Position numbers and translations under genes: made by a program
DNA from: Bacillota bacterium
Lineage (GTDB): Bacteria > Bacillota_I > Bacilli_A > RF39 > UBA660
Assembly (NCBI GenBank): GCA_022771715.1
Contig: JALELF010000054.1
Span: forward strand, 1 to 39,949
DNA: 39,949 nucleotides
Direction: 5' to 3'
The notes under the pieces: model-generated
The model's database searches: none
What the model saw: the letters and a program-made list of their open reading frames with translations, nothing else
What the model was told of the DNA's origin: nothing
Shown: one piece after another, positions 161-25,164 of the stretch
Layout: each line of letters begins with the position of its first letter
Position numbering within the stretch: the stretch's first letter is position 1

Positions 161-1945
161 TTATAATCCGCCACCACTTCCGAAAGAATCTAATTCTCTT
201 TCAGTAAGAACAACTCTTATTCTCATACGTCTACTTCCGCATACAAATAAAGCGTCTCCTTGATTATATTTTTTAATATTTTCTTTTTCGTTTTCATTTA
301 AATCTATAAGTAGTGACAAATCTTCAACAGCTTGTTTTTTTAGTCCCATTACTAAATAATAAGATGCATTATCAAATATTGCTTTACCTTGTGTTATTAC
401 TGCTCTATCACAGAAGTCACTAGGTTGCTGAGTGATAATAATAGTACCTGTATTATACTTTCTTGCACGTCTTTGAATTTGTGCTAAGAAGTCAGCACCT
501 AAAGTATTTTGATCACTTAATAATATATGGGCTTCATCTACCATTAATATAGTATTAACTCTTTTATCTAGAGTTAGTCCCCAAGCATATTTCAATATAT
601 TAAAGAATAAAGCATTTTTTACATTCGTATCAGCATTCATTAATTCTTTTATGTTAAATACTATAAAATCACTATTTGTCTTTATCGTTGTATGACCATC
701 GAAATAATATTTAAGTTCTTTAACAATTGGTCTAACTTTTAATTCAAGTCTTTCCAAAATATCTTTTTCATGTGTTCTATCTGGCATTGATAATAGCTTA
801 CCTTTAATTGTTGCATATACATCCTTAAATGTAGGAATATCATCTTTACCAAATCTTGTTAAATCACTATTAAAATCTATACCAAATCTACGATAAGTAT
901 CTTGTGCAATTTCGCTGAACATTGTAAGAACATCCTCTTCAATACTAGGATCATAATATTTCATAAAAGCTTTTAAGTTTTGAAGTGTTCTTGTAAGTAC
1001 AGTATAACCAAGTCCAGATTTTAAATCTTCTTCATCAACGTCAAGTGTAATATCAAGTGGATTTACCATACCATATTCTCCACCTTTACCAAGATCAATG
1101 AAATCTCCTCCATATAATCTTGTCATTTCTGAAAGTTCTCCTTCTGGATCTATTACGACAATTTGATGACCATTTCTAAAATTAGCACGTAAAAGTAATT
1201 TTGCAGCAGTTGATTTACCACTACCAGATGTACCTAAAATAATCATATTTGCATTATTTCTGTTATGCTCTTTTCTTATTTGATATAAGAATTGATTAAA
1301 TAGGATAACACCTCCAGAAAAATCTACGCCAAGAAGAGTTGATAAGCCTGGGTCTTTTATACTGTCAAATATAAATGGATACATTGCCGCAATTGTAGGC
1401 GATGGTATTGGTGTACCTATTCTATCTTCTACATCTTGTTTAGGATATATAGGTAGAATTGATTTAAATACCTGTTCTTGTTGAAATCTTAATGAAACTG
1501 CACGCATTTCCATTGATTCAATATAATTTTTAACTTGAACTTTTTTTATAGCCAAAGCTTCTTCTGAATCAGCAGAAACTACTACATGCATTTGAAAATC
1601 ATAGATTGCTGATTGTGTAGCCGCTAATTGTTGAATAAAATATTCAAGTGACTCATAATCTTGTCTAATTCTTTCTTGAATTGTTTTATCATTTTCATCT
1701 TGATATCGTTGTTTTAAATCTGCAATTTCTTTATTTAGCATTTTACTAATTACACTAAATGGTACTGGTATATGTTTAATTACAATTTTAATTCCTGGAA
1801 TACTGGTTAAATCAGCAAGAAAACCAGGTGATATAAATTTAGGATAACTAATTACTGACATTACTGTAGTATACTTATCACCTATAATAATATCTGCTGG
1901 TCTAAATTGTAAACCTTTAGGAGCTATTTCTGATTTTAAAGACAT
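161..1945 (-). CDS. VirB4/TraE-like T4SS ATPase, ATPase-domain part
   Basis: Walker A LGTSGSGKST, Walker B ILMVDEAHILL, FLAQIQRRARKYNTGTIIITQQPSDF typical of VirB4-type ATPases; 594 aa. Confidence 0.88.
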   Translation of the reverse strand: MSLKSEIAPKGLQFRPADIIIGDKYTTVMSVISYPKFISPGFLADLTSIPGIKIVIKHIPVPFSVISKMLNKEIADLKQRYQDENDKTIQERIRQDYESLEYFIQQLAATQSAIYDFQMHVVVSADSEEALAIKKVQVKNYIESMEMRAVSLRFQQEQVFKSILPIYPKQDVEDRIGTPIPSPTIAAMYPFIFDSIKDPGLSTLLGVDFSGGVILFNQFLYQIRKEHNRNNANMIILGTSGSGKSTAAKLLLRANFRNGHQIVVIDPEGELSEMTRLYGGDFIDLGKGGEYGMVNPLDITLDVDEEDLKSGLGYTVLTRTLQNLKAFMKYYDPSIEEDVLTMFSEIAQDTYRRFGIDFNSDLTRFGKDDIPTFKDVYATIKGKLLSMPDRTHEKDILERLELKVRPIVKELKYYFDGHTTIKTNSDFIVFNIKELMNADTNVKNALFFNILKYAWGLTLDKRVNTILMVDEAHILLSDQNTLGADFLAQIQRRARKYNTGTIIITQQPSDFCDRAVITQGKAIFDNASYYLVMGLKKQAVEDLSLLIDLNENEKENIKKYNQGDALFVCGSRRMRIRVVLTERELDSFGSGGGL

Positions 1946-2502
1946 TATTTAACACCTACCGTTCCAAATGTAGTTTGTACACCACCATTTAAGAAATTAT
2001 CCAAAATTATTCTTAAATCTTCATTACTTGTTTGAGTGGTTGTTAATCCAGCATTAGCAAAATGTGTTATTAAATTACGAATTCTTTTATTAATTTCATC
2101 AGTATTTTTTTCTTTAAATAACAAATAATATTCTGTATCAACTATATCATTATTTATAAAGTAATCACACTTATTTAAATCCTCTAATATTATTTTTCTT
2201 CTAGCCGGATTTTGTTCTTTATTAAATTGCATTTGTAATTCTGATATATAAACTTGTATATCTACAGGTCTATCAGCAACCACTAGCCAAAATTCATAAT
2301 TAATTGTATTATAAACAATTTTTAAATTATCGATTATAGCATTTTGTGTATATGGATCTGTTATAAATATGTTTCTTGGTTGTATTTTAATACCTGTTAC
2401 TTTAAAATCATTATCTAAAACAATCATACCATTTATTATATTTCTTACTGGTACATTATCTTCAGTAAATTTACTTTGATTTATTTTTTGTGCCATTTGC
2501 AC
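1945..2502 (-). CDS. VirB4/TraC N-terminal-domain-like protein (separately encoded)
   Basis: 185 aa ORF directly upstream of the VirB4 ATPase, TAATG stop/start overlap; resembles the region normally N-terminal in VirB4-like proteins. Confidence 0.55.
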   Translation of the reverse strand: MQMAQKINQSKFTEDNVPVRNIINGMIVLDNDFKVTGIKIQPRNIFITDPYTQNAIIDNLKIVYNTINYEFWLVVADRPVDIQVYISELQMQFNKEQNPARRKIILEDLNKCDYFINNDIVDTEYYLLFKEKNTDEINKRIRNLITHFANAGLTTTQTSNEDLRIILDNFLNGGVQTTFGTVGVK

Positions 2503-2788
2503 ACCAACCTTTCCATATAAACTTTTGTCTTGTTGTATAGAATTGATAAATTAATACTAAAACTGTTAATGTATTGTGATAGTTAGCTACAGGGAAAACT
2601 AATAAAGCAGTTGTCAATAATGGTAGTAATTTTATAACTACTATTGGTATTGAACTTGATTTAATTATTATTAGCATTAATACTGTAGCTAATGCACCAC
2701 AACCAAATATTATCAAATCTATTGGTCTAAATATACCAAATATTAACATTGATTTTTTTGAATTGGCTGGTATTAAAAATTGATTCAT
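2471..2788 (-). CDS. PrgI/TcpE-like small T4SS membrane protein
   Basis: 105 aa, two hydrophobic segments, IPANSKKSMLIFGIFRPIDLIIFG start and KFIWKGW C-terminal motif; immediately upstream of VirB4 genes. Confidence 0.7.
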   Translation of the reverse strand: MNQFLIPANSKKSMLIFGIFRPIDLIIFGCGALATVLMLIIIKSSSIPIVVIKLLPLLTTALLVFPVANYHNTLTVLVLIYQFYTTRQKFIWKGWCANGTKNKSK

Positions 2789-2808
2789 TTAGTATCACAC
2801 CCTTTTTA

Positions 2809-5049
2809 TTAGAAACCTCTATGATCATCATCAATTATATTTTGATTATTGTGATTAGAAGGTTGACTATTATTATTTGTATTGATTGGTCTATTAACTT
2901 GTCCACTTGCTTGTGAGTTTCCAGAAGATATTGGTCTACCACTACTATCAACTATACCACTAGGTCTAGTTTGTTGATTATTAGATGGTTGTGGAGCTCC
3001 ATTACCCTGCATATTTGTAAAACCTTCACGAATAGCTGCTGTAATAGAATCTTGTAATTGTTGATTTCTGTTTGTATTAGAAACACCAGTTTGATCAAAT
3101 TCTGGCAACACGATTGTTCCGTTTTCTTTTCCTTCTTCTTTTGCTTTTCTTTTAATTTCTTCAACGGTAGTAACATAACTAGAAACGTTAGATTGAACTT
3201 TATGTCTATCTTCTGCTGCACTAAATGCTGCATATCTTTCAGCATCAGCTTTATGTTGAATTTTGATTTTATCAAAGTCTGCCTTTGATTTATCATAATC
3301 AGCTGCAGCTTTTGCAGATGCAATTCTTGCTTTATTTACAGCTTCAGCACCATTATATGTTTTATTACCCTCTCTATATTGAACTTCTTCTCCAGATTCA
3401 TAACGCATTTTCATTTTTTCATATTCGCCAGCAATTGTATCTCTTCTTTCCTTGGCCTTATCCATTGTTTCTACTTTAGCACCAAAGTCTTTAGAACTAT
3501 ATATGTCATATTTCTTTTTATCATCAACTGCTCCATTTGTCAATGTCCTTTGATATAATCTTTCTCCCTCTTTATATTCTTCTCTTGTTTTCTTATAGTC
3601 CTTACTTCTAAAGTTTTCTTGATATGCTTTATGCATATTTCCACCTAATTTATCAGTACCTTTTAAACCAGCGGAAGTAATCTTTTCTTTAGCAGATGAA
3701 CCAAGGGCATGCCAACGAGCACCTATTCTCTCACCAGTTTCACCCATTCCTTCTTTAAATCCTGTACCAAATTTTTCACCTTTAATAGCGCTACCTGTTC
3801 CTTTAAACAATGATTTAGCAGTTCCCCAAGCAGCTCTACCAGCTATCATACCTGCACCTCCAAGTGCAGTTGCACCTGCTGTAGCAAGTCCACCAACTAA
3901 TGGAACAGAACCTAATTTTTTGAATGCATTAAATGTCATTTTACCAGCACCCTTAATGCCTAATATATCTTCAAGTAGTTTAGGGAATTCTTTAGCAAAT
4001 AACAATATTCCAAGCATAACAAACACTGTAACCATAGAGAACTGATTAGTTCCACCAGTTACAAATGAGAAAATACCACCATCTGTATTAATAGTAATAA
4101 TTGCACTTAGTGCAAATGTTATTACCAAAACTCTAATAAATAAACTAGCCCACGTTGAAACACATTCTTTTCCCCAGTTAGCTAAAGTGTTGTTTTTTTG
4201 TTGAGGCGATAGTGACAAAATAATTGGGATAGGTGCAATGATTTGTAAAAAGCTTAATTTAACTGACCTTACTGCCAAATCTAAACAAAAGCCAATCATA
4301 ATCCAAGCTAAAAAGCCTCCAACTACTGTAGATATTGGATAATTATAATCAAACAAATAGAAAGCATCTGCTTTATAAAAATCTCCACCACTATTAGAAG
4401 TAAAAATACCAGTAGTATTAGCAATTTCAGATTGCATAATTGTTTTTAAATCATAATTAGCCAAAGCAGCTTTATATGCTGTACCGGGATTATGATTAGT
4501 TGTATCTTCCTTATTAAGTGCTGCTTCACATGCAGCAGAAATTGACACACCTTCATATGTTCTACATTCTTCTAAATAAGATGTAGGTTTAAAAAATGTT
4601 AAAAAAGCGTAAGTTGAAATAGCATTATTTTTATTGGCATCATCAGTTTGACTAGATGTATCACCAAGTAAAACTTTATCAATAACATGATTTTGAAATA
4701 TAATTTTTTGTAAATAATAAGCTTCATTAAAAATAGTAGGTACACTAACTAATAGTGCCATAGTTATTACAATTTTTTTAATAAGAGCCGCTCCACCCTT
4801 TTGCTTATCAGTAAAAGAGTCAGGATTTATAATATAATTTATAAAGGAAAAGCCAAGCTTAAAAAACATGATTATACTAACTAAAACATAAATTCTACTA
4901 GCAAAGCTTTCAATTTGTGTTTGAGTAAAAATGGAAGCTTCTGATAACATAGAAAAAAGCCAGTAAGCTTGATCAACTAGCCAATACACACCAGTATCAA
5001 TAAGTAAAAATAAATTTCTAAATACACTTGTAACTGAGCCTGTACTCAT
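2809..5049 (-). CDS. VirB6/TrbL-like polytopic membrane protein with long hydrophilic C-terminal tail
   Basis: 746 aa, multiple N-terminal TM segments followed by a Gly/Ala segment and a charged, then Asn/Gln/Ser-rich tail; position in T4SS-like operon. Confidence 0.7.
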   Translation of the reverse strand: MSTGSVTSVFRNLFLLIDTGVYWLVDQAYWLFSMLSEASIFTQTQIESFASRIYVLVSIIMFFKLGFSFINYIINPDSFTDKQKGGAALIKKIVITMALLVSVPTIFNEAYYLQKIIFQNHVIDKVLLGDTSSQTDDANKNNAISTYAFLTFFKPTSYLEECRTYEGVSISAACEAALNKEDTTNHNPGTAYKAALANYDLKTIMQSEIANTTGIFTSNSGGDFYKADAFYLFDYNYPISTVVGGFLAWIMIGFCLDLAVRSVKLSFLQIIAPIPIILSLSPQQKNNTLANWGKECVSTWASLFIRVLVITFALSAIITINTDGGIFSFVTGGTNQFSMVTVFVMLGILLFAKEFPKLLEDILGIKGAGKMTFNAFKKLGSVPLVGGLATAGATALGGAGMIAGRAAWGTAKSLFKGTGSAIKGEKFGTGFKEGMGETGERIGARWHALGSSAKEKITSAGLKGTDKLGGNMHKAYQENFRSKDYKKTREEYKEGERLYQRTLTNGAVDDKKKYDIYSSKDFGAKVETMDKAKERRDTIAGEYEKMKMRYESGEEVQYREGNKTYNGAEAVNKARIASAKAAADYDKSKADFDKIKIQHKADAERYAAFSAAEDRHKVQSNVSSYVTTVEEIKRKAKEEGKENGTIVLPEFDQTGVSNTNRNQQLQDSITAAIREGFTNMQGNGAPQPSNNQQTRPSGIVDSSGRPISSGNSQASGQVNRPINTNNNSQPSNHNNQNIIDDDHRGF

Positions 5050-5065
5050 ATTACACCACCTTTTT

Positions 5066-5863
5066 CTAATTCAAAAGTTGATCTATACAACTCATTACTT
5101 CAGAACCACCTGAAACAATATTAATAATCATTTCCACAATAACAAAGCTTAATAAAACTATAACTGCTGCTGCAAATCTTTTTAAACAATGCTTTTGTGT
5201 TTTCTTTATAGTACTCTCGTCAGAAGTAGCTGCTGCTTTTGCCATGTCAATAGTAGCAAAAACAACCAAAGTAAGTGGAGCACCAATTTTTAATATTTCA
5301 TAAGCATACTTTAACAATTTAAAAGCAGGAACATCGCTTGGACATCCACCATTTAAAGCTGTAGTGTATGTCAGTTTAGATGGATTAGCATTACCGAATT
5401 TATACGCTAACAATTCATCAAGGCCTCCAACATCAGCTTCTCTTAATTCTTTTTTTAAATGATATGTTCCTAATCCAAAAGCACAATTTGAACAAGTTCC
5501 TTCCTCAATATAAACTTTATCACCACATTCACAAAGTTGTTGTGGACACTTTGTAATTAAATAATTAGGATCTGATAAGGCATCATGCGTTGAATTAACA
5601 CCCGTAGGTGCATTAGCACCAGCACCATTATAAACAAATTTACTTTCTTCTAGCTTATTATCAAATATAAAAGGTAAAAATCCTTCATCACCAGCTCTAT
5701 ACATATCAAATTTAACTTTTGAACCAACTACGTGCAAAGCTCCTTGAATGGCATTATCTGCCCACTTGTCATAAACACATACTTTATAATTAGCTGCACT
5801 AACATCATTCATAAAAGCAAAACACAATATTAATGTACTAAACATATATATAAGTTTTTTCAT
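5066..5863 (-). CDS. Exported protein: Cys-rich ectodomain + C-terminal two-TM VirB2/TrbC-like domain
   Basis: Start at ATG 5863 (GAGTGATTATATGAAAAAACTT; SD present) rather than 5911. Signal peptide; CPQQLCECGDKVYIEEGTCSNC; C-terminus aligns by eye with the 126-aa protein at 8209-8589. Confidence 0.6.
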   Translation of the reverse strand: MKKLIYMFSTLILCFAFMNDVSAANYKVCVYDKWADNAIQGALHVVGSKVKFDMYRAGDEGFLPFIFDNKLEESKFVYNGAGANAPTGVNSTHDALSDPNYLITKCPQQLCECGDKVYIEEGTCSNCAFGLGTYHLKKELREADVGGLDELLAYKFGNANPSKLTYTTALNGGCPSDVPAFKLLKYAYEILKIGAPLTLVVFATIDMAKAAATSDESTIKKTQKHCLKRFAAAVIVLLSFVIVEMIINIVSGGSEVMSCIDQLLN

Positions 5864-5902
5864 ATAATCACTCATCTCTAAATAGAATAATTTACTATAA
5901 AT

Positions 5903-5932
5903 ATAATACACTATATTTGTCTATAAAGTCAA
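5903..5932 (-). promoter_or_regulatory. Sigma-A-type promoter for T4SS-like operon
   Basis: TTGACT (5927-5932) - 18 nt - TATTAT (5903-5908). Confidence 0.6.
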
Positions 5933-5950
5933 TTATAGATATATAGTTAT

Positions 5951-5980
5951 GACAAAAAAAGTGTCTATTCAAACACTTTA
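5951..5980 (-). terminator. Rho-independent terminator after SPFH gene
   Basis: AAAGTGT..ACACTTT stem followed by a T-run on the minus strand. Confidence 0.7.
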
Positions 5981-6856
5981 TCTTGTTTTAGCTTTATCAT
6001 CTATTGGATTAACTGGAAAAGTAAAACCATTATTTCCACTATTTCTAATTACAGTTTGTGTTTTATCAGCGTATCTAGACTCAATATCATAATTAGCAGC
6101 TTCTTGTGGAGTCAAGTTAGATTTTTGAATTTCTCTTAAAGAATTAGCTTTAGCAACACCCTCATGAGTGGCAATTTCTTCATATAACTGAGAAACTTTT
6201 AATTTGCTTTGTGCTTCTAATTCTCTTCTTTCATTTTCGTTCTTAGTTTCTAATAATCTTCTTTCATTTTCAGCTCTTTGAGCTTCTCTTTGTCTGCTAG
6301 CTTCTTCATACTCTTTTGGTGGAATTATATCAGTTAATCTAATCTCATTTATTCTTATACCATATTTTTGTTCAAATTCTTCTAAATCTTTTTTTAATAC
6401 TTCTGCAGCACCCTTAGCATTTATATCAAAGTTTTTCTTTGACAATGTTACATAATCTCTTTCTTTTATATAATTCTTTAATCCTTGCAATAAAAGTGCA
6501 TCAAAGATTTTCCCAACATTATCGGAAGAATAAACATATTTTATAGGATCTACTATAGTAGAAGTCCAACTGAAAAAGCATCCAACATCAAATCCTTCTT
6601 TTGAACTTGCCTTTAAAGGTTCAGCAAAACTTCCAGGAGTAGCTACATTTGAAGCATTAACTACAGCTTTTACTACATAGAAAGGTTTAAAAGATGTTCC
6701 CATTTTTATTATAACAGGTTTACGTGAAATAACATTTTCCGCAACTAAAACTTTAGAATTTTGAACATTATAAATAGAGCCTAAAAAACATCTATATCTG
6801 CCATCAACTTTTTTACTTTTTTTTACATTTTCATTTTTTTCTTTATTTTCTGCCAT
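5978..6856 (-). CDS. SPFH/Band-7 (prohibitin-like) domain protein without obvious TM segment
   Basis: 292 aa; FGIRINEIRLTDIIPPKE-like segment (KYGIRINEIRLTDIIPP) followed by charged coiled coil typical of SPFH proteins; no hydrophobic N-terminal helix. Confidence 0.6.
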   Translation of the reverse strand: MAENKEKNENVKKSKKVDGRYRCFLGSIYNVQNSKVLVAENVISRKPVIIKMGTSFKPFYVVKAVVNASNVATPGSFAEPLKASSKEGFDVGCFFSWTSTIVDPIKYVYSSDNVGKIFDALLLQGLKNYIKERDYVTLSKKNFDINAKGAAEVLKKDLEEFEQKYGIRINEIRLTDIIPPKEYEEASRQREAQRAENERRLLETKNENERRELEAQSKLKVSQLYEEIATHEGVAKANSLREIQKSNLTPQEAANYDIESRYADKTQTVIRNSGNNGFTFPVNPIDDKAKTR

Positions 6857-6880
6857 ATTTGTCCCTCTTTCATTTCAAGT

Positions 6881-6909
6881 ACTCTAACATATTTACATCA
6901 AAAAGTCAA
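6881..6909 (-). promoter_or_regulatory. Putative promoter of SPFH gene
   Basis: TTGACT (6904-6909) - 17 nt - TAGAGT (6881-6886). Confidence 0.45.
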
Positions 6910-7044
6910 TTAATACAACTATATTATAACATAATTTATATAGTATAGTAAATCACTAATAACAAGTAAATGTAAACCAGTGTAAAACAATCACATAATT
7001 TTTGACAATTCTATCATTATTTAAACACAAATACAAACTATAAT

Positions 7045-7216
7045 GTATTTGAAAAGAGGAAATTTACAACATACAAAACTCTCTTAAATAAAATATAAAT
7101 TTGTAAATTTATTACAATACACTCACTATTAATGCTTACTGTTAACAAGCAATATAAAATACCCAAAACTTTTAAGTGTTTTCTCTTTTCAAAGTTGTCA
7201 AAAACAACTTTTTTTA
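7045..7216 (+). ncRNA. Candidate structured small RNA with intrinsic terminator (family unknown)
   Basis: TATAAT at 7039-7044; 11-bp closing stem TTTGAAAAGAG (7048-7058)/CTCTTTTCAAA (7183-7193); 10-bp stem AAATTTACAA (7060-7069)/TTGTAAATTT (7101-7110); then AAGTTGT-CAAAA-ACAACTT + T-run (7192-7215). Confidence 0.45.
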
Positions 7217-7221
7217 TTTAT

Positions 7222-7243
7222 AAAAAAAGAAGCATAAGCTTCT
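7222..7243 (-). terminator. Terminator of pilin-fmt operon
   Basis: AGAAGC-TTAT-GCTTCT followed by T-run on minus strand. Confidence 0.75.
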
Positions 7244-8204
7244 AATCTAATACTCTGCCAATAAATTCTTCTTTATTAACTCCATTTAAGAATTCCTTAG
7301 CGCTCATTTTATTTTTACCTTCTAGTTGAACTTCAGTAAAAACAATTTCACCATTTGAAACCTTAACTCCAAATCCATTGTCATATATATTAGTTATTTG
7401 TCCATCAAACATAGCAGGAAAATAATTATCAGTTACATAACTATTCCATACTTTTAATATTTTTCCTTCATATAGACAGTAGGCTCCTGGCCAAGAATTT
7501 AAACCTCTTATTTGATTATGAATATCTCTTTTTGTTTTAGAGAAATCTATTCTTTCATCTTCTCTTTTAATTGTAAAAGCAAAAGTTACTTCATCTCTAT
7601 TTTGCTTTGTTCTACTATTTGTTCCATTAATAATAGATGGTAATGTTTCTATCAATAATTTAGCTCCTAATACGCTTAATTTGTCATGTAAACTACTTGC
7701 AGTATCAGTATCAAGAATAGGAGTTTCTACTTGTGAAATAATATCACCATCATCCATTTTTTCATTCATATACATAATAGTGATACCAGTTTTACTGTGC
7801 CCATCCATAATAGCTCTATGAATAGGGGCTCCACCTCTTAATTTAGGAAGTAATGAAGCATGGACATTTATACAACCAAGTCTTGGAATATCCAATATTT
7901 CTTTAGGTACAATTTGTCCATAAGCACATGTTACAATCAAATCAGGATTAATATGCTTTACTTCTTCAACAACATCTTTAATTTTTTCTGGTTGTAATGT
8001 TAGTATAACACGTTTGTCAGCTTCTACTTTAACTGGAGGATGTACCATTTCTTGTTTCCTACCAACCATTCTATCAGGTTGAGTAATTACACATGAAACT
8101 TTATAATTATCATCTAAAGCCTTCAAAACAGGTACAGCAAAATCTGGTGTACCCATAAATATAATTTTCAATTTTTTTTCTGGATTTAATTTTTCTAAAT
8201 TCAT
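7242..8204 (-). CDS. fmt: Methionyl-tRNA formyltransferase
   Basis: IIFMGTPDFAVPVLKAL, INVHASLLPKLRGGAPIHRAIMDG, LNSWPGAYC signatures. Confidence 0.97.
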   Translation of the reverse strand: MNLEKLNPEKKLKIIFMGTPDFAVPVLKALDDNYKVSCVITQPDRMVGRKQEMVHPPVKVEADKRVILTLQPEKIKDVVEEVKHINPDLIVTCAYGQIVPKEILDIPRLGCINVHASLLPKLRGGAPIHRAIMDGHSKTGITIMYMNEKMDDGDIISQVETPILDTDTASSLHDKLSVLGAKLLIETLPSIINGTNSRTKQNRDEVTFAFTIKREDERIDFSKTKRDIHNQIRGLNSWPGAYCLYEGKILKVWNSYVTDNYFPAMFDGQITNIYDNGFGVKVSNGEIVFTEVQLEGKNKMSAKEFLNGVNKEEFIGRVLD

Positions 8205-8208
8205 ATAT

Positions 8209-8589
8209 CTAGACCCCTTCTACACAATCAGGTATATTTACATCTGAAACAGGCGCAACTATATCGATTATCCATCCTACAAAAACAGATGTTAAAAGCA
8301 ATAAAACTACTGCAATTAATCTTTTTACAGTTCTACTAAAAGCATTTTTTAAATCATCATCTTTAGAACCGCCTATAACTTGAATAAAATCTACCGCTGT
8401 TAAAACTATAGCTAGTCCAACACCAGCAAACTCCACAAATTTAAATGCGTTCTTAAGCCAAGTGTTTAATTCACTACCAACTGCATCACAACCATCTAGT
8501 ACTTGAAATAAATTCAAATCAAATGCTTTAGTACTCACTGGTATAAACAAAGTTAATAATATAAGTAACATAATAAATTTCTTTTTCAT
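8209..8589 (-). CDS. VirB2/TrbC-like pilin-type small exported protein
   Basis: 126 aa; signal peptide, two TM helices separated by a basic loop (GGSKDDDLKNAFSRTVKRLIAVVLLLL); homologous by eye to C-terminus of the 5066-5863 product. Confidence 0.65.
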   Translation of the reverse strand: MKKKFIMLLILLTLFIPVSTKAFDLNLFQVLDGCDAVGSELNTWLKNAFKFVEFAGVGLAIVLTAVDFIQVIGGSKDDDLKNAFSRTVKRLIAVVLLLLTSVFVGWIIDIVAPVSDVNIPDCVEGV

Positions 8590-8607
8590 ATAATCACCAC
8601 TAACTAA

Positions 8608-8636
8608 ATAATATCATAAATGATAAGTATTTTCAA
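8608..8636 (-). promoter_or_regulatory. Promoter of pilin-fmt operon
   Basis: TTGAAA (8631-8636) - 17 nt - TATTAT (8608-8613). Confidence 0.6.
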
Positions 8637-8637
8637 G

Positions 8638-9630
8638 TTAAATCCATACACCAAAAGATATTGCTGCCATACTTAAAATTAAACCACAAGTCCAAAACAA
8701 TTTAACAATATCTGTTTCATGCCAGCCTAACTTTTCAAAATGATGATGAAGTGGCGCCATTAAAAATACTTTTTTATGGAAATAAATTATTGATATTTGT
8801 TGAATAATCGCAACTAACGTTTCAACTATAAAAACACCCATTATTACTATAAATGTAATTTCATGACTAGTTATTATAGCTACACTAGCAAGAGTCGCTC
8901 CTAAAGATAAAGAACCAACATCACCCATAAACACTTTGGCTGGATATGTATTGAACATCAAAAAGCCTATTAAAGCACCAACTAAGATAAAACAAAATAC
9001 AGCAATATCACCACTACCTTGTATCCCAGTAGAGCCCCAACTAATTATACCTAAAGCCAAAAAGGCAATCGCCGATAAACCACCAGCTAGTCCATCTAAA
9101 CCATCTGTTAAATTAACCGCATTAGAACTTGCTACTAATACAAAAAGTAAAAATACTCCATAAAACCATCCCATATCAATATTAATACCCAATGTATAAA
9201 TAGTTAAATGTGGATCATTTCCACTTTTAATGTATATATAGAAAAATACTAAAGCAATTAATAATTGTCCAAACAGTTTTTGAATTTCTGTTAATCCTTC
9301 ATTATCATGCCTTTTTATTATTAAATAGTCATCAATAAAACCTAATAAAGCATAAAAAACAAAGACAAACAAAACAATGAGAAGATTATTTGAAAATTCT
9401 ATTTTGTTCATAAAAAGCAAGATAATTGCAGTAACTATAGTAGGAATTATAAATATAAATCCTCCCATTGTTGGAATACCTTCTTTTTTCTTATGTCTTT
9501 CTTCTAGAAAAACACTAACCGTTTGTCTTATATTCACTCTTTTTAAAAATTTGATAAAAAAATAGCCAAACGTTACACTTGTTATAAAACCAATCAATAA
9601 AGCTAAGGCTGATTTTGCTAATATTAACAC
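8638..9630 (-). CDS. mraY: Phospho-N-acetylmuramoyl-pentapeptide transferase
   Basis: GIPTMGG, NLTDGLDGLAGG, FMGDVGSLSLG, APLHHHFE motifs. GTG start at 9630 with GGAG SD preferred over the longer ORF start at 9672. Confidence 0.95.
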   Translation of the reverse strand: MLILAKSALALLIGFITSVTFGYFFIKFLKRVNIRQTVSVFLEERHKKKEGIPTMGGFIFIIPTIVTAIILLFMNKIEFSNNLLIVLFVFVFYALLGFIDDYLIIKRHDNEGLTEIQKLFGQLLIALVFFYIYIKSGNDPHLTIYTLGINIDMGWFYGVFLLFVLVASSNAVNLTDGLDGLAGGLSAIAFLALGIISWGSTGIQGSGDIAVFCFILVGALIGFLMFNTYPAKVFMGDVGSLSLGATLASVAIITSHEITFIVIMGVFIVETLVAIIQQISIIYFHKKVFLMAPLHHHFEKLGWHETDIVKLFWTCGLILSMAAISFGVWI

Positions 9631-9634
9631 ATTA

Positions 9635-10966
9635 TCATCTCCTAATATATTTAAGAACCGTATTTTTATCACTAAAATATTTTCTTTTATTTTTAATTAT
9701 TTGGTACTCTTCATGTCCTTTACCAAGCAATAATAGTATATCATTTTCATTTAACATTTGTATACCTTTTTTTATTGCTTTCTTACGATTTTTAATAACT
9801 TTATAATTGTCTTTACATACATTTGTTAGCATGTCTTTAATTATGTCATCTGGTTTTTCAAAACGTGGATTATCATTTGTAAATATAACATAATCAGACA
9901 TTTCCGTAGAAATTTTACCCATTACTTCTCTTTTGGATTTATCTCTATTACCACCACAACCTATAATTGTATATATTTTATTGGGATTTGTTTTTCTAAC
10001 ATTAGTTATTATTTTTAAAACAGCATCTGGTGTATGAGCATAATCAATAATGATTAAGTTATTTTTATATTCTATTTTTTCTACTCTACCAACTGGTGGA
10101 TTTAATTCTTTTATTATATCTTTATTATATAGTTTTAGTTGTTTTAAAATAATTATACACGCTGTTAAATTATATATATTGTATTTTCCTATTAATTTAG
10201 TTTCTATTAATTCGTCATTTAAATTAAAAATAGTTTTATCTATGAATAATTCATAATTATCTATTTTATAATCACTTTCTTCAAATCCATAAGTTAAACT
10301 ATTTTCATCTAAAAAGTAACTATAATATTCATCATCAATATTAATAATTGATAAACCATTAGGTTTTAATTTTTTAAATAACAATTGTTTTGCTAATGCA
10401 TAATTTCTCATTGTTTTATGATAATCTAAATGTTCTTTTGTAAGATTAGTAAATATAGCATAATCAAAATATATTGTATCTAATATATTCATGGATAATG
10501 CTTGACTACTAACTTCAATTACTACATACTCATATCCTTTATCTTTACACTCTATAAGCATCTTATAGATATCTAATATATCAGGAGTAGTATTATTTAA
10601 ATCTTTTATCTTCTTGTCTAAATAAAAGCCTATAGTGCCAATATAAGCACATTTCTTACCAACTTTATTTAACGCTTGATATATTAAATAACAAGTAGTA
10701 GTTTTACCATTAGTACCAGTTACTCCAATTAGTTTTAAATCAGATATATATTTATAATAACACCTTTCTAAACATTCTTTTAAACATTCTTTAGTATTTT
10801 CTACTATTACCGTTTCTACAGAATATGAGCCATGTTCCGCTATTACTTTAATAGCACCATTTTTGATAGCTTCATTTATATAATCATGACCATCATGAGT
10901 ATTACCTTTTATAGCAAAGAAAGTATCTCCTTTTTTTACTTCTTTAGAATTAACTTGTAATTTCAT
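9635..10966 (-). CDS. murE: UDP-N-acetylmuramyl-tripeptide synthetase (MurE-like Mur ligase)
   Basis: GVTGTNGKTTTCYLI, IDYAHTPDAVLK, GCGGNRDKSKR; start at ATG 10966 with SD GGTGAT. Confidence 0.93.
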   Translation of the reverse strand: MKLQVNSKEVKKGDTFFAIKGNTHDGHDYINEAIKNGAIKVIAEHGSYSVETVIVENTKECLKECLERCYYKYISDLKLIGVTGTNGKTTTCYLIYQALNKVGKKCAYIGTIGFYLDKKIKDLNNTTPDILDIYKMLIECKDKGYEYVVIEVSSQALSMNILDTIYFDYAIFTNLTKEHLDYHKTMRNYALAKQLLFKKLKPNGLSIINIDDEYYSYFLDENSLTYGFEESDYKIDNYELFIDKTIFNLNDELIETKLIGKYNIYNLTACIIILKQLKLYNKDIIKELNPPVGRVEKIEYKNNLIIIDYAHTPDAVLKIITNVRKTNPNKIYTIIGCGGNRDKSKREVMGKISTEMSDYVIFTNDNPRFEKPDDIIKDMLTNVCKDNYKVIKNRKKAIKKGIQMLNENDILLLLGKGHEEYQIIKNKRKYFSDKNTVLKYIRR

Positions 10967-13517: not shown

Positions 13518-14264
13518 TCACCTCTCTGTCAATATTTGATAGCCATCACTAGTTACAACAACCGTGTGCTCAAAATGAGCTGATGGCGAAGAGTCCATGG
13601 TTACAATTGTCCAATCATCATCTAAGATTGCTACATCAGCACTTCCTAAATTAAGCATTGGTTCAACTGCAATAACCATTCCCTTTTTTAATACTGGTCC
13701 TGTTCCTTTACGTCCATAATTTGGAACATCAGGATCTTCATGAACATCAGTTCCGACACCATGTCCAACTAATTCCTTTACTACCCCAAGGTTATATTTC
13801 TTAGCAACACTTTCAACATTATATCCAATGTCACCAATTCTTGCACCTTCTTTGATAGCACTTAATCCCGCAAACAATGACTCTTCCGTATGTTTAAGTA
13901 AATCTTCTAATTCTTTAGAAATTTTACCTACTGGATAAGTCCAAGCAGAATCACCATGATAACCCATATAACAAGCACCAATATCAATTGATATGATGTC
14001 TCCTTCTTTTAGCTTTCTATTTGATGGTATACCATGTACTACTTCATCATTAATAGATGTGCAAATACTACCAGGATATCCATCATATCCTTTAAAAGAA
14101 GGAGAAGCACCATTCTTTATGATAAAATCATTAGCCAATTTATCTAATTCTTTAGTAGTAATACCAGGTTTAATATATTTTTTCAAATAATTATGTGTAT
14201 CTCCTACTATTTTACCAGCTTTTTTCATAAGTTCGATTTCTCGATCTGATTTAATTTTTATCAT
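13518..14264 (-). CDS. map: Methionine aminopeptidase type I
   Basis: ICTSINDEVVHGIPSNRKLKEGDIISIDIGACYMGYHGDSAWT; GHGVGTDVHEDPDVPNYG. Confidence 0.96.
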   Translation of the reverse strand: MIKIKSDREIELMKKAGKIVGDTHNYLKKYIKPGITTKELDKLANDFIIKNGASPSFKGYDGYPGSICTSINDEVVHGIPSNRKLKEGDIISIDIGACYMGYHGDSAWTYPVGKISKELEDLLKHTEESLFAGLSAIKEGARIGDIGYNVESVAKKYNLGVVKELVGHGVGTDVHEDPDVPNYGRKGTGPVLKKGMVIAVEPMLNLGSADVAILDDDWTIVTMDSSPSAHFEHTVVVTSDGYQILTER

Positions 14265-24961: not shown

Positions 24962-25088
24962 ATTGTATCCTCCCTTCGCCTATATCTAAGTATAGACTCG
25001 CTCCGTGTAAAAACCCGATATATGAAGTCATATCATAACAACTTAACCCCGTGTATCGGCAACCTCACACATCAATGCGTGCCACACA
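24962..25088 (-). promoter_or_regulatory. Candidate S10-operon leader RNA
   Basis: ~125-nt untranslated leader between a strong promoter and rpsJ; CCGATA/TATCGG stem and ACACGGAGCGAGTC ... AGGCGAAGGGAGG segments, which look like leaders I recall upstream of rpsJ in other Firmicutes. Confidence 0.45.
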
Positions 25089-25094
25089 TTCAAA

Positions 25095-25123
25095 ATTATA
25101 CCTTATTATTGCTTTAAATGCAA
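25095..25123 (-). promoter_or_regulatory. Promoter of S10 operon
   Basis: TTGCAT (25118-25123) - 17 nt - TATAAT (25095-25100). Confidence 0.65.
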
Positions 25124-25164
25124 CAGTTTTTTGCATTTTTTTAGAAAAATTTTATTTTAATATT

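Follow-up and report, generated by a model that had tools for sequence, protein, structure and literature searches.

Small RNAs restricted to a species are common in Firmicutes, and species-specific trans-acting ones have been catalogued in S. aureus (PMC5826253). Here we describe a candidate that may belong with them, found in a 39,949-nt stretch of DNA (the window) that constitutes one of the 95 contigs of a draft genome (1.07 Mb, 92% complete) from an uncultured, low-GC member of the class Bacilli. Among named relatives, it is closest by Fmt to Bacilli assembled from metagenomes, UBA660 among them. The window has a GC content of 28.5%, a figure that applies to the window and not to the whole genome, and carries all of its genes on the minus strand. 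As noted in a preliminary description of this DNA, a gap of 385 nt separates fmt from a Band_7/SPFH gene (Table 1). The best reading of this gap, partly supported by its sequence, is a structured plus-strand RNA that ends at a terminator. With moderate confidence, we take it to be a single-copy, lineage-specific small-RNA gene of ~165 nt, probably specifying a stable regulator.

Table 1. Features in and around the gap between fmt and the SPFH gene
Feature	Position in the window	Strand	Remarks
Band_7/SPFH gene	5978-6856	minus	Pfam assignment
Gap	6857-7241		385 nt, 78% AT; bounded by fmt and the Band_7/SPFH gene
Outer stem, 5' arm	6999-7010	plus	pairs with 7193-7204, directly outside the closing stem
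Small hairpin	7028-7051	plus	8 bp; between outer and closing stems, with a 4-nt overlap with the closing stem
TATAAT, possible -10 box	7039-7044	plus	from sequence; start expected near 7051
Closing stem, 5' arm	7048-7063	plus	16 bp with 7178-7193; stacking -20.5 kcal/mol
Proposed small RNA, short form	7051-7217	plus	~165 nt; fold z ~ -3.2; no convincing ORF; no Rfam match
Inner 10-bp stem	7060-7069/7101-7110	plus	exact; ~35% of ensemble
5-bp hairpin TGCTT/AAGCA	7133-7137/7147-7151	plus	pair probability 0.76-0.96
Hairpin AAAAC/GTTTT	7165-7169/7178-7182	plus	from sequence
Closing stem, 3' arm	7178-7193	plus	directly before the terminator
Intrinsic terminator	7191-7217	plus	AAAGTTGT-CAAAA-ACAACTTT + T-run
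fmt terminator	7218-7243	minus	6-bp stem 7243-7228 + T-run; converges on the terminator of the RNA
fmt	7242-8204	minus	

Closing stem, terminator and promoter

The preliminary description had reported a perfect 11-bp long-range stem and a terminator with a plus-strand T-run, and both were found. The stem is in fact longer than stated, since G-U pairs extend the perfect part (7048-7058/7183-7193) to 16 bp. When the gap was shuffled 200 times, a stem that matched its stacking energy arose once; two other sites in the 40-kb window, with arms within 250 nt, match it as well, and an equally good stem abutting the terminator appeared in 3 of 5,000 shuffles. Long-range stems at 13999-14105, inside a methionine-aminopeptidase-like gene, and at 69-186 are both stronger than this closing stem.

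The terminator hairpin (7191-7211) has an 8-bp stem with two GC pairs, followed by TTTTTTT, and was skipped by the terminator tool because its rule demands three GC pairs. It resembles other terminators of the contig and is the strongest of the three plus-strand terminator-like hairpins that our scan detected in the window, with no plus-strand gene upstream of it. An identical 21-nt hairpin occurs in the same genome at the 3' end of another ORF (contig C50, 452-1054, minus strand), with its T-run pointing in the direction of that ORF. A second plus-strand terminator-like hairpin of the window, at 25117-25137 (AATGCAACAGTTTTTTGCATTTTTTT), lies near an S10-Clostridia leader matched at 24976-25083 on the minus strand. 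On the minus strand of the gap, a promoter-like site of the SPFH gene and the terminator of fmt together leave positions 6953-7217 unexplained.

The whole fold of the candidate RNA (z ~ -3.2) was matched by 0-1 shuffles, and the minus-strand fold was much weaker (z -1.3 and -1.7); nevertheless, as good a z occurs in ~3% of the 167-nt windows on the contig. The interior within the closing stem shows no structure beyond that of shuffles (z -0.5), and the four-branch fold proposed earlier has -23.2 kcal/mol, as compared with a minimum of -24.2. Its 10-bp inner stem is exact in sequence, but competes with the closing stem and is no better than chance. The sequences of the TGCTT/AAGCA and AAAAC/GTTTT hairpins are present, but the inner stems taken together are unsupported.

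The TATAAT box of the same description is also present, but as a signal it does no better than chance: the motif occurs once per strand in this 78% AT gap, which by our own rough estimate is close to the chance expectation. The -35 box, already described as weak, is very weak, because at a spacing of 16-18 nt there is no hexamer resembling TTGACA, and the sole true TTGACA (7002-7007) lies 31 nt upstream of the -10. Judged by these motifs, the promoter of the candidate RNA appears weak and unconvincing.

It is conceivable that the pairing arose by chance in an AT-rich spacer, and that a real terminator simply ends plus-strand transcription that is stray or that diverges from the promoter region of SPFH. 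The proportion of contig windows that fold equally well, the shuffle-like interior, the ordinariness of a TATAAT at this AT content and the lack of conservation described below all agree with this explanation, whereas the rarity among shuffles of a stem directly beside the terminator does not, a rarity to which a second, collinear stem adds. We consider an origin by chance possible, although rather unlikely.

An outer stem that overlaps the terminator

That second stem, missed previously, is an outer stem of 11-12 bp (6999-7010/7193-7204), so that the 27 nt of the right arm, 7178-7204, run without a break and are complementary to two segments on the left that lie 37 nt apart. An outer match this good, collinear with the closing stem and abutting it, was obtained in 5 of 20,000 shuffles, in a test devised after the match had been seen. 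The fold of 6995-7219 (z -3.0) contains the outer stem and loses the terminator hairpin. Because the outer stem takes the 5' arm of the terminator, both structures are mutually exclusive, and the outer stem would be relevant only to a transcript starting upstream of 6999, where no good promoter was seen in the sequence.

The locus could thus contain a conformational switch. In a transcript from upstream of 6999, the outer stem would stack on the closing stem and occupy the 5' arm of the terminator, and the polymerase would read into fmt in antisense; with the outer stem absent, the terminator would form. The complementarity of the right arm to two left segments and its rare collinear outer part are in agreement with a switch, as are the fold that discards the terminator hairpin and the overlap of an alternative stem with the terminator, which is characteristic of antiterminator leaders. 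However, no good promoter is seen upstream of 6999, the supporting test was post hoc, there are no homologues, and no plus-strand gene exists downstream to be controlled. An antiterminator switch is possible, then, but improbable, and less likely than a small RNA.

Known RNA families and coding potential

Scans of the gap with Rfam 15, at the gathering threshold and at E ≤ 10, returned nothing relevant and only sub-threshold matches, such as one to eukaryotic U7 (19.7 versus 34 bits), and no family fits the gap. In agreement with the preliminary description, which could not match the locus to 6S, tmRNA, SRP or RNase P RNA and saw no ORF that explains it, there was no match in the gap to 6S RNA (RF00013, at E ≤ 10) or to SRP RNA, RNase P RNA and tmRNA (RF00169, RF00011 and RF00023, respectively), and no convincing ORF. 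The last three RNAs are each found above cut-off elsewhere in the genome, which also has a 6S candidate (contig C43, 2858-2972; 31.5 bits, below cut-off); the same ThiF-family gene lies downstream of this candidate and of the 6S RNA in a genus mate. A divergent housekeeping RNA in the gap is therefore ruled out, as all four have been placed elsewhere, 6S by a syntenic candidate below cut-off. A small ORF is likewise ruled out, the sole notable plus-strand frame (37 aa, 7132-7245) being of low complexity and crossing both terminators.

Conservation and gene order at the locus

Blastn comparisons with 60 relatives yielded AT-rich noise and terminators, and no homologue of the candidate. A single-sequence covariance model produced one weak partial match (E 0.29) among 291 family genomes, such models being insensitive; a search of syntenic loci with filters off gave only noise, and phage and plasmid records contained no match to the candidate. 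A 17-mer of the 5' arm matched 10 viral contigs, the similarity ending there. Apart from the terminator hairpin, the candidate has no second copy in its own genome.

The genes that bound the gap are of limited help as anchors. The SPFH gene, which heads an operon, has no relative in the genome_contigs collection and no ortholog at E ≤ 1e-10 among 386 family genomes, and is as orphan as the candidate RNA. The neighbours of fmt vary among relatives; of the 21 named loci that are nearest, most have the next gene no more than 60 nt after fmt. The only genus mate compared, whose Fmt is 68% identical, lacks both the gap and the SPFH gene; there, fmt has priA on one side, which it follows, and on the other a recD-like helicase gene, which it faces, and a different contig carries the secretion operon. 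The absence of gap and SPFH gene from the genus mate, the rearranged neighbours and the lack of homologues indicate that the gap is a lineage-specific junction. Judging from gene order, a rearrangement of fmt and a secretion-system operon took place at this site.

In the window, fmt adjoins a T4SS-pilin-like gene and mraY (7242-9672), in a rearranged region. The secretion cluster (161-5911 and 8209-8589; also L144, L145 and L146) recurs across this Bacilli family and contains T4SS-like parts (VirB4-like ATPase, VirB6-like and T4SS pilin-like) and Tad-like parts (CpaF/TadB/TadC-like, judged by eye). The VirB4-like protein is encoded in two ORFs (594 and 185-194 aa) in both genus members. These T4SS/Tad-like neighbour genes are family-wide, but they are located elsewhere in the genus mate.

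A breakpoint of this kind could also harbour a DNA-level inverted repeat or the remnant of a small mobile element, rather than an RNA gene, spanning ~206 bp (6999-7204) and with 37 bp interrupting its terminal repeat on the left. The broken synteny would suit such a remnant, and the long interrupted inverted repeat is consistent with terminal repeats. Conversely, no target-site duplication was seen at the ends, phages and plasmids have no match, the right end coincides with a working-type terminator, and the element is single-copy, the terminator hairpin aside; having no second copy in the genome, a mobile-element repeat was rejected, and we consider this explanation as a whole quite improbable.

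Discussion

The small-RNA reading is favoured by several observations: the stem abutting the terminator, the whole fold with its weaker minus-strand counterpart, a proper plus-strand terminator without an upstream plus-strand gene, the recurrence of its hairpin at the 3' end of another ORF, the stretch that the minus-strand signals of fmt and SPFH do not explain, and the frequency of species-restricted small RNAs in Firmicutes. The locus also combines an intrinsic terminator with the lack of a convincing ORF, as a small-RNA gene should. Counting against it, there is no homologue and hence no covariation or sign of selection, the promoter is weak, the interior resembles shuffles, and other windows of the contig fold equally well. 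Additionally, no antisense target among the window genes was better than those of shuffled RNAs (best -22.7 kcal/mol, versus a shuffled-RNA mean of -24.3), which also counts against it.

If the gap indeed encodes a small RNA, transcription would start near 7051 and end at ~7217, converging with fmt. The first 13-16 bases would pair with those just before the terminator, and this end-to-end stem would, together with the terminator, protect the ends of the molecule, while an A/U/C-rich and largely single-stranded interior would be presented for base pairing with mRNAs. By analogy with the species-specific small RNAs of Firmicutes (PMC5826253), the RNA, if expressed, would act by base pairing. 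A free-standing RNA with two states, in which outer stem and terminator alternate and upstream starts lead to readthrough into fmt antisense and internal starts to the small RNA, seems very improbable to us.

Should the candidate be transcribed, one lineage of reduced-genome Bacilli would have a small RNA of its own, in a group for which our limited literature search found no small-RNA study. It would also point to sites of rearrangement as places where RNAs of this kind can originate; a single unconserved candidate settles no open question.

Among known systems, terminator/antiterminator leaders, such as riboswitch-type expression platforms, share with the candidate an outer stem that uses terminator bases in a mutually exclusive manner, but the candidate has neither a plus-strand gene downstream nor a conserved ligand-binding core. 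6S RNA (RF00013) shares a stem that closes the molecule end to end, with a terminator after it, as well as the large A/U-rich interior and a similar length; nevertheless, the candidate does not match the 6S model, and the genome has a 6S candidate of its own. With the species-specific trans-acting small RNAs of Firmicutes (PMC5826253), the candidate, a prediction from sequence, shares an intergenic transcription unit of its own, in this case predicted, together with an intrinsic terminator, the lack of a convincing ORF and a narrow distribution. It is thus reasonable, but unproven, to consider it an orphan sRNA of a known, ordinary kind.
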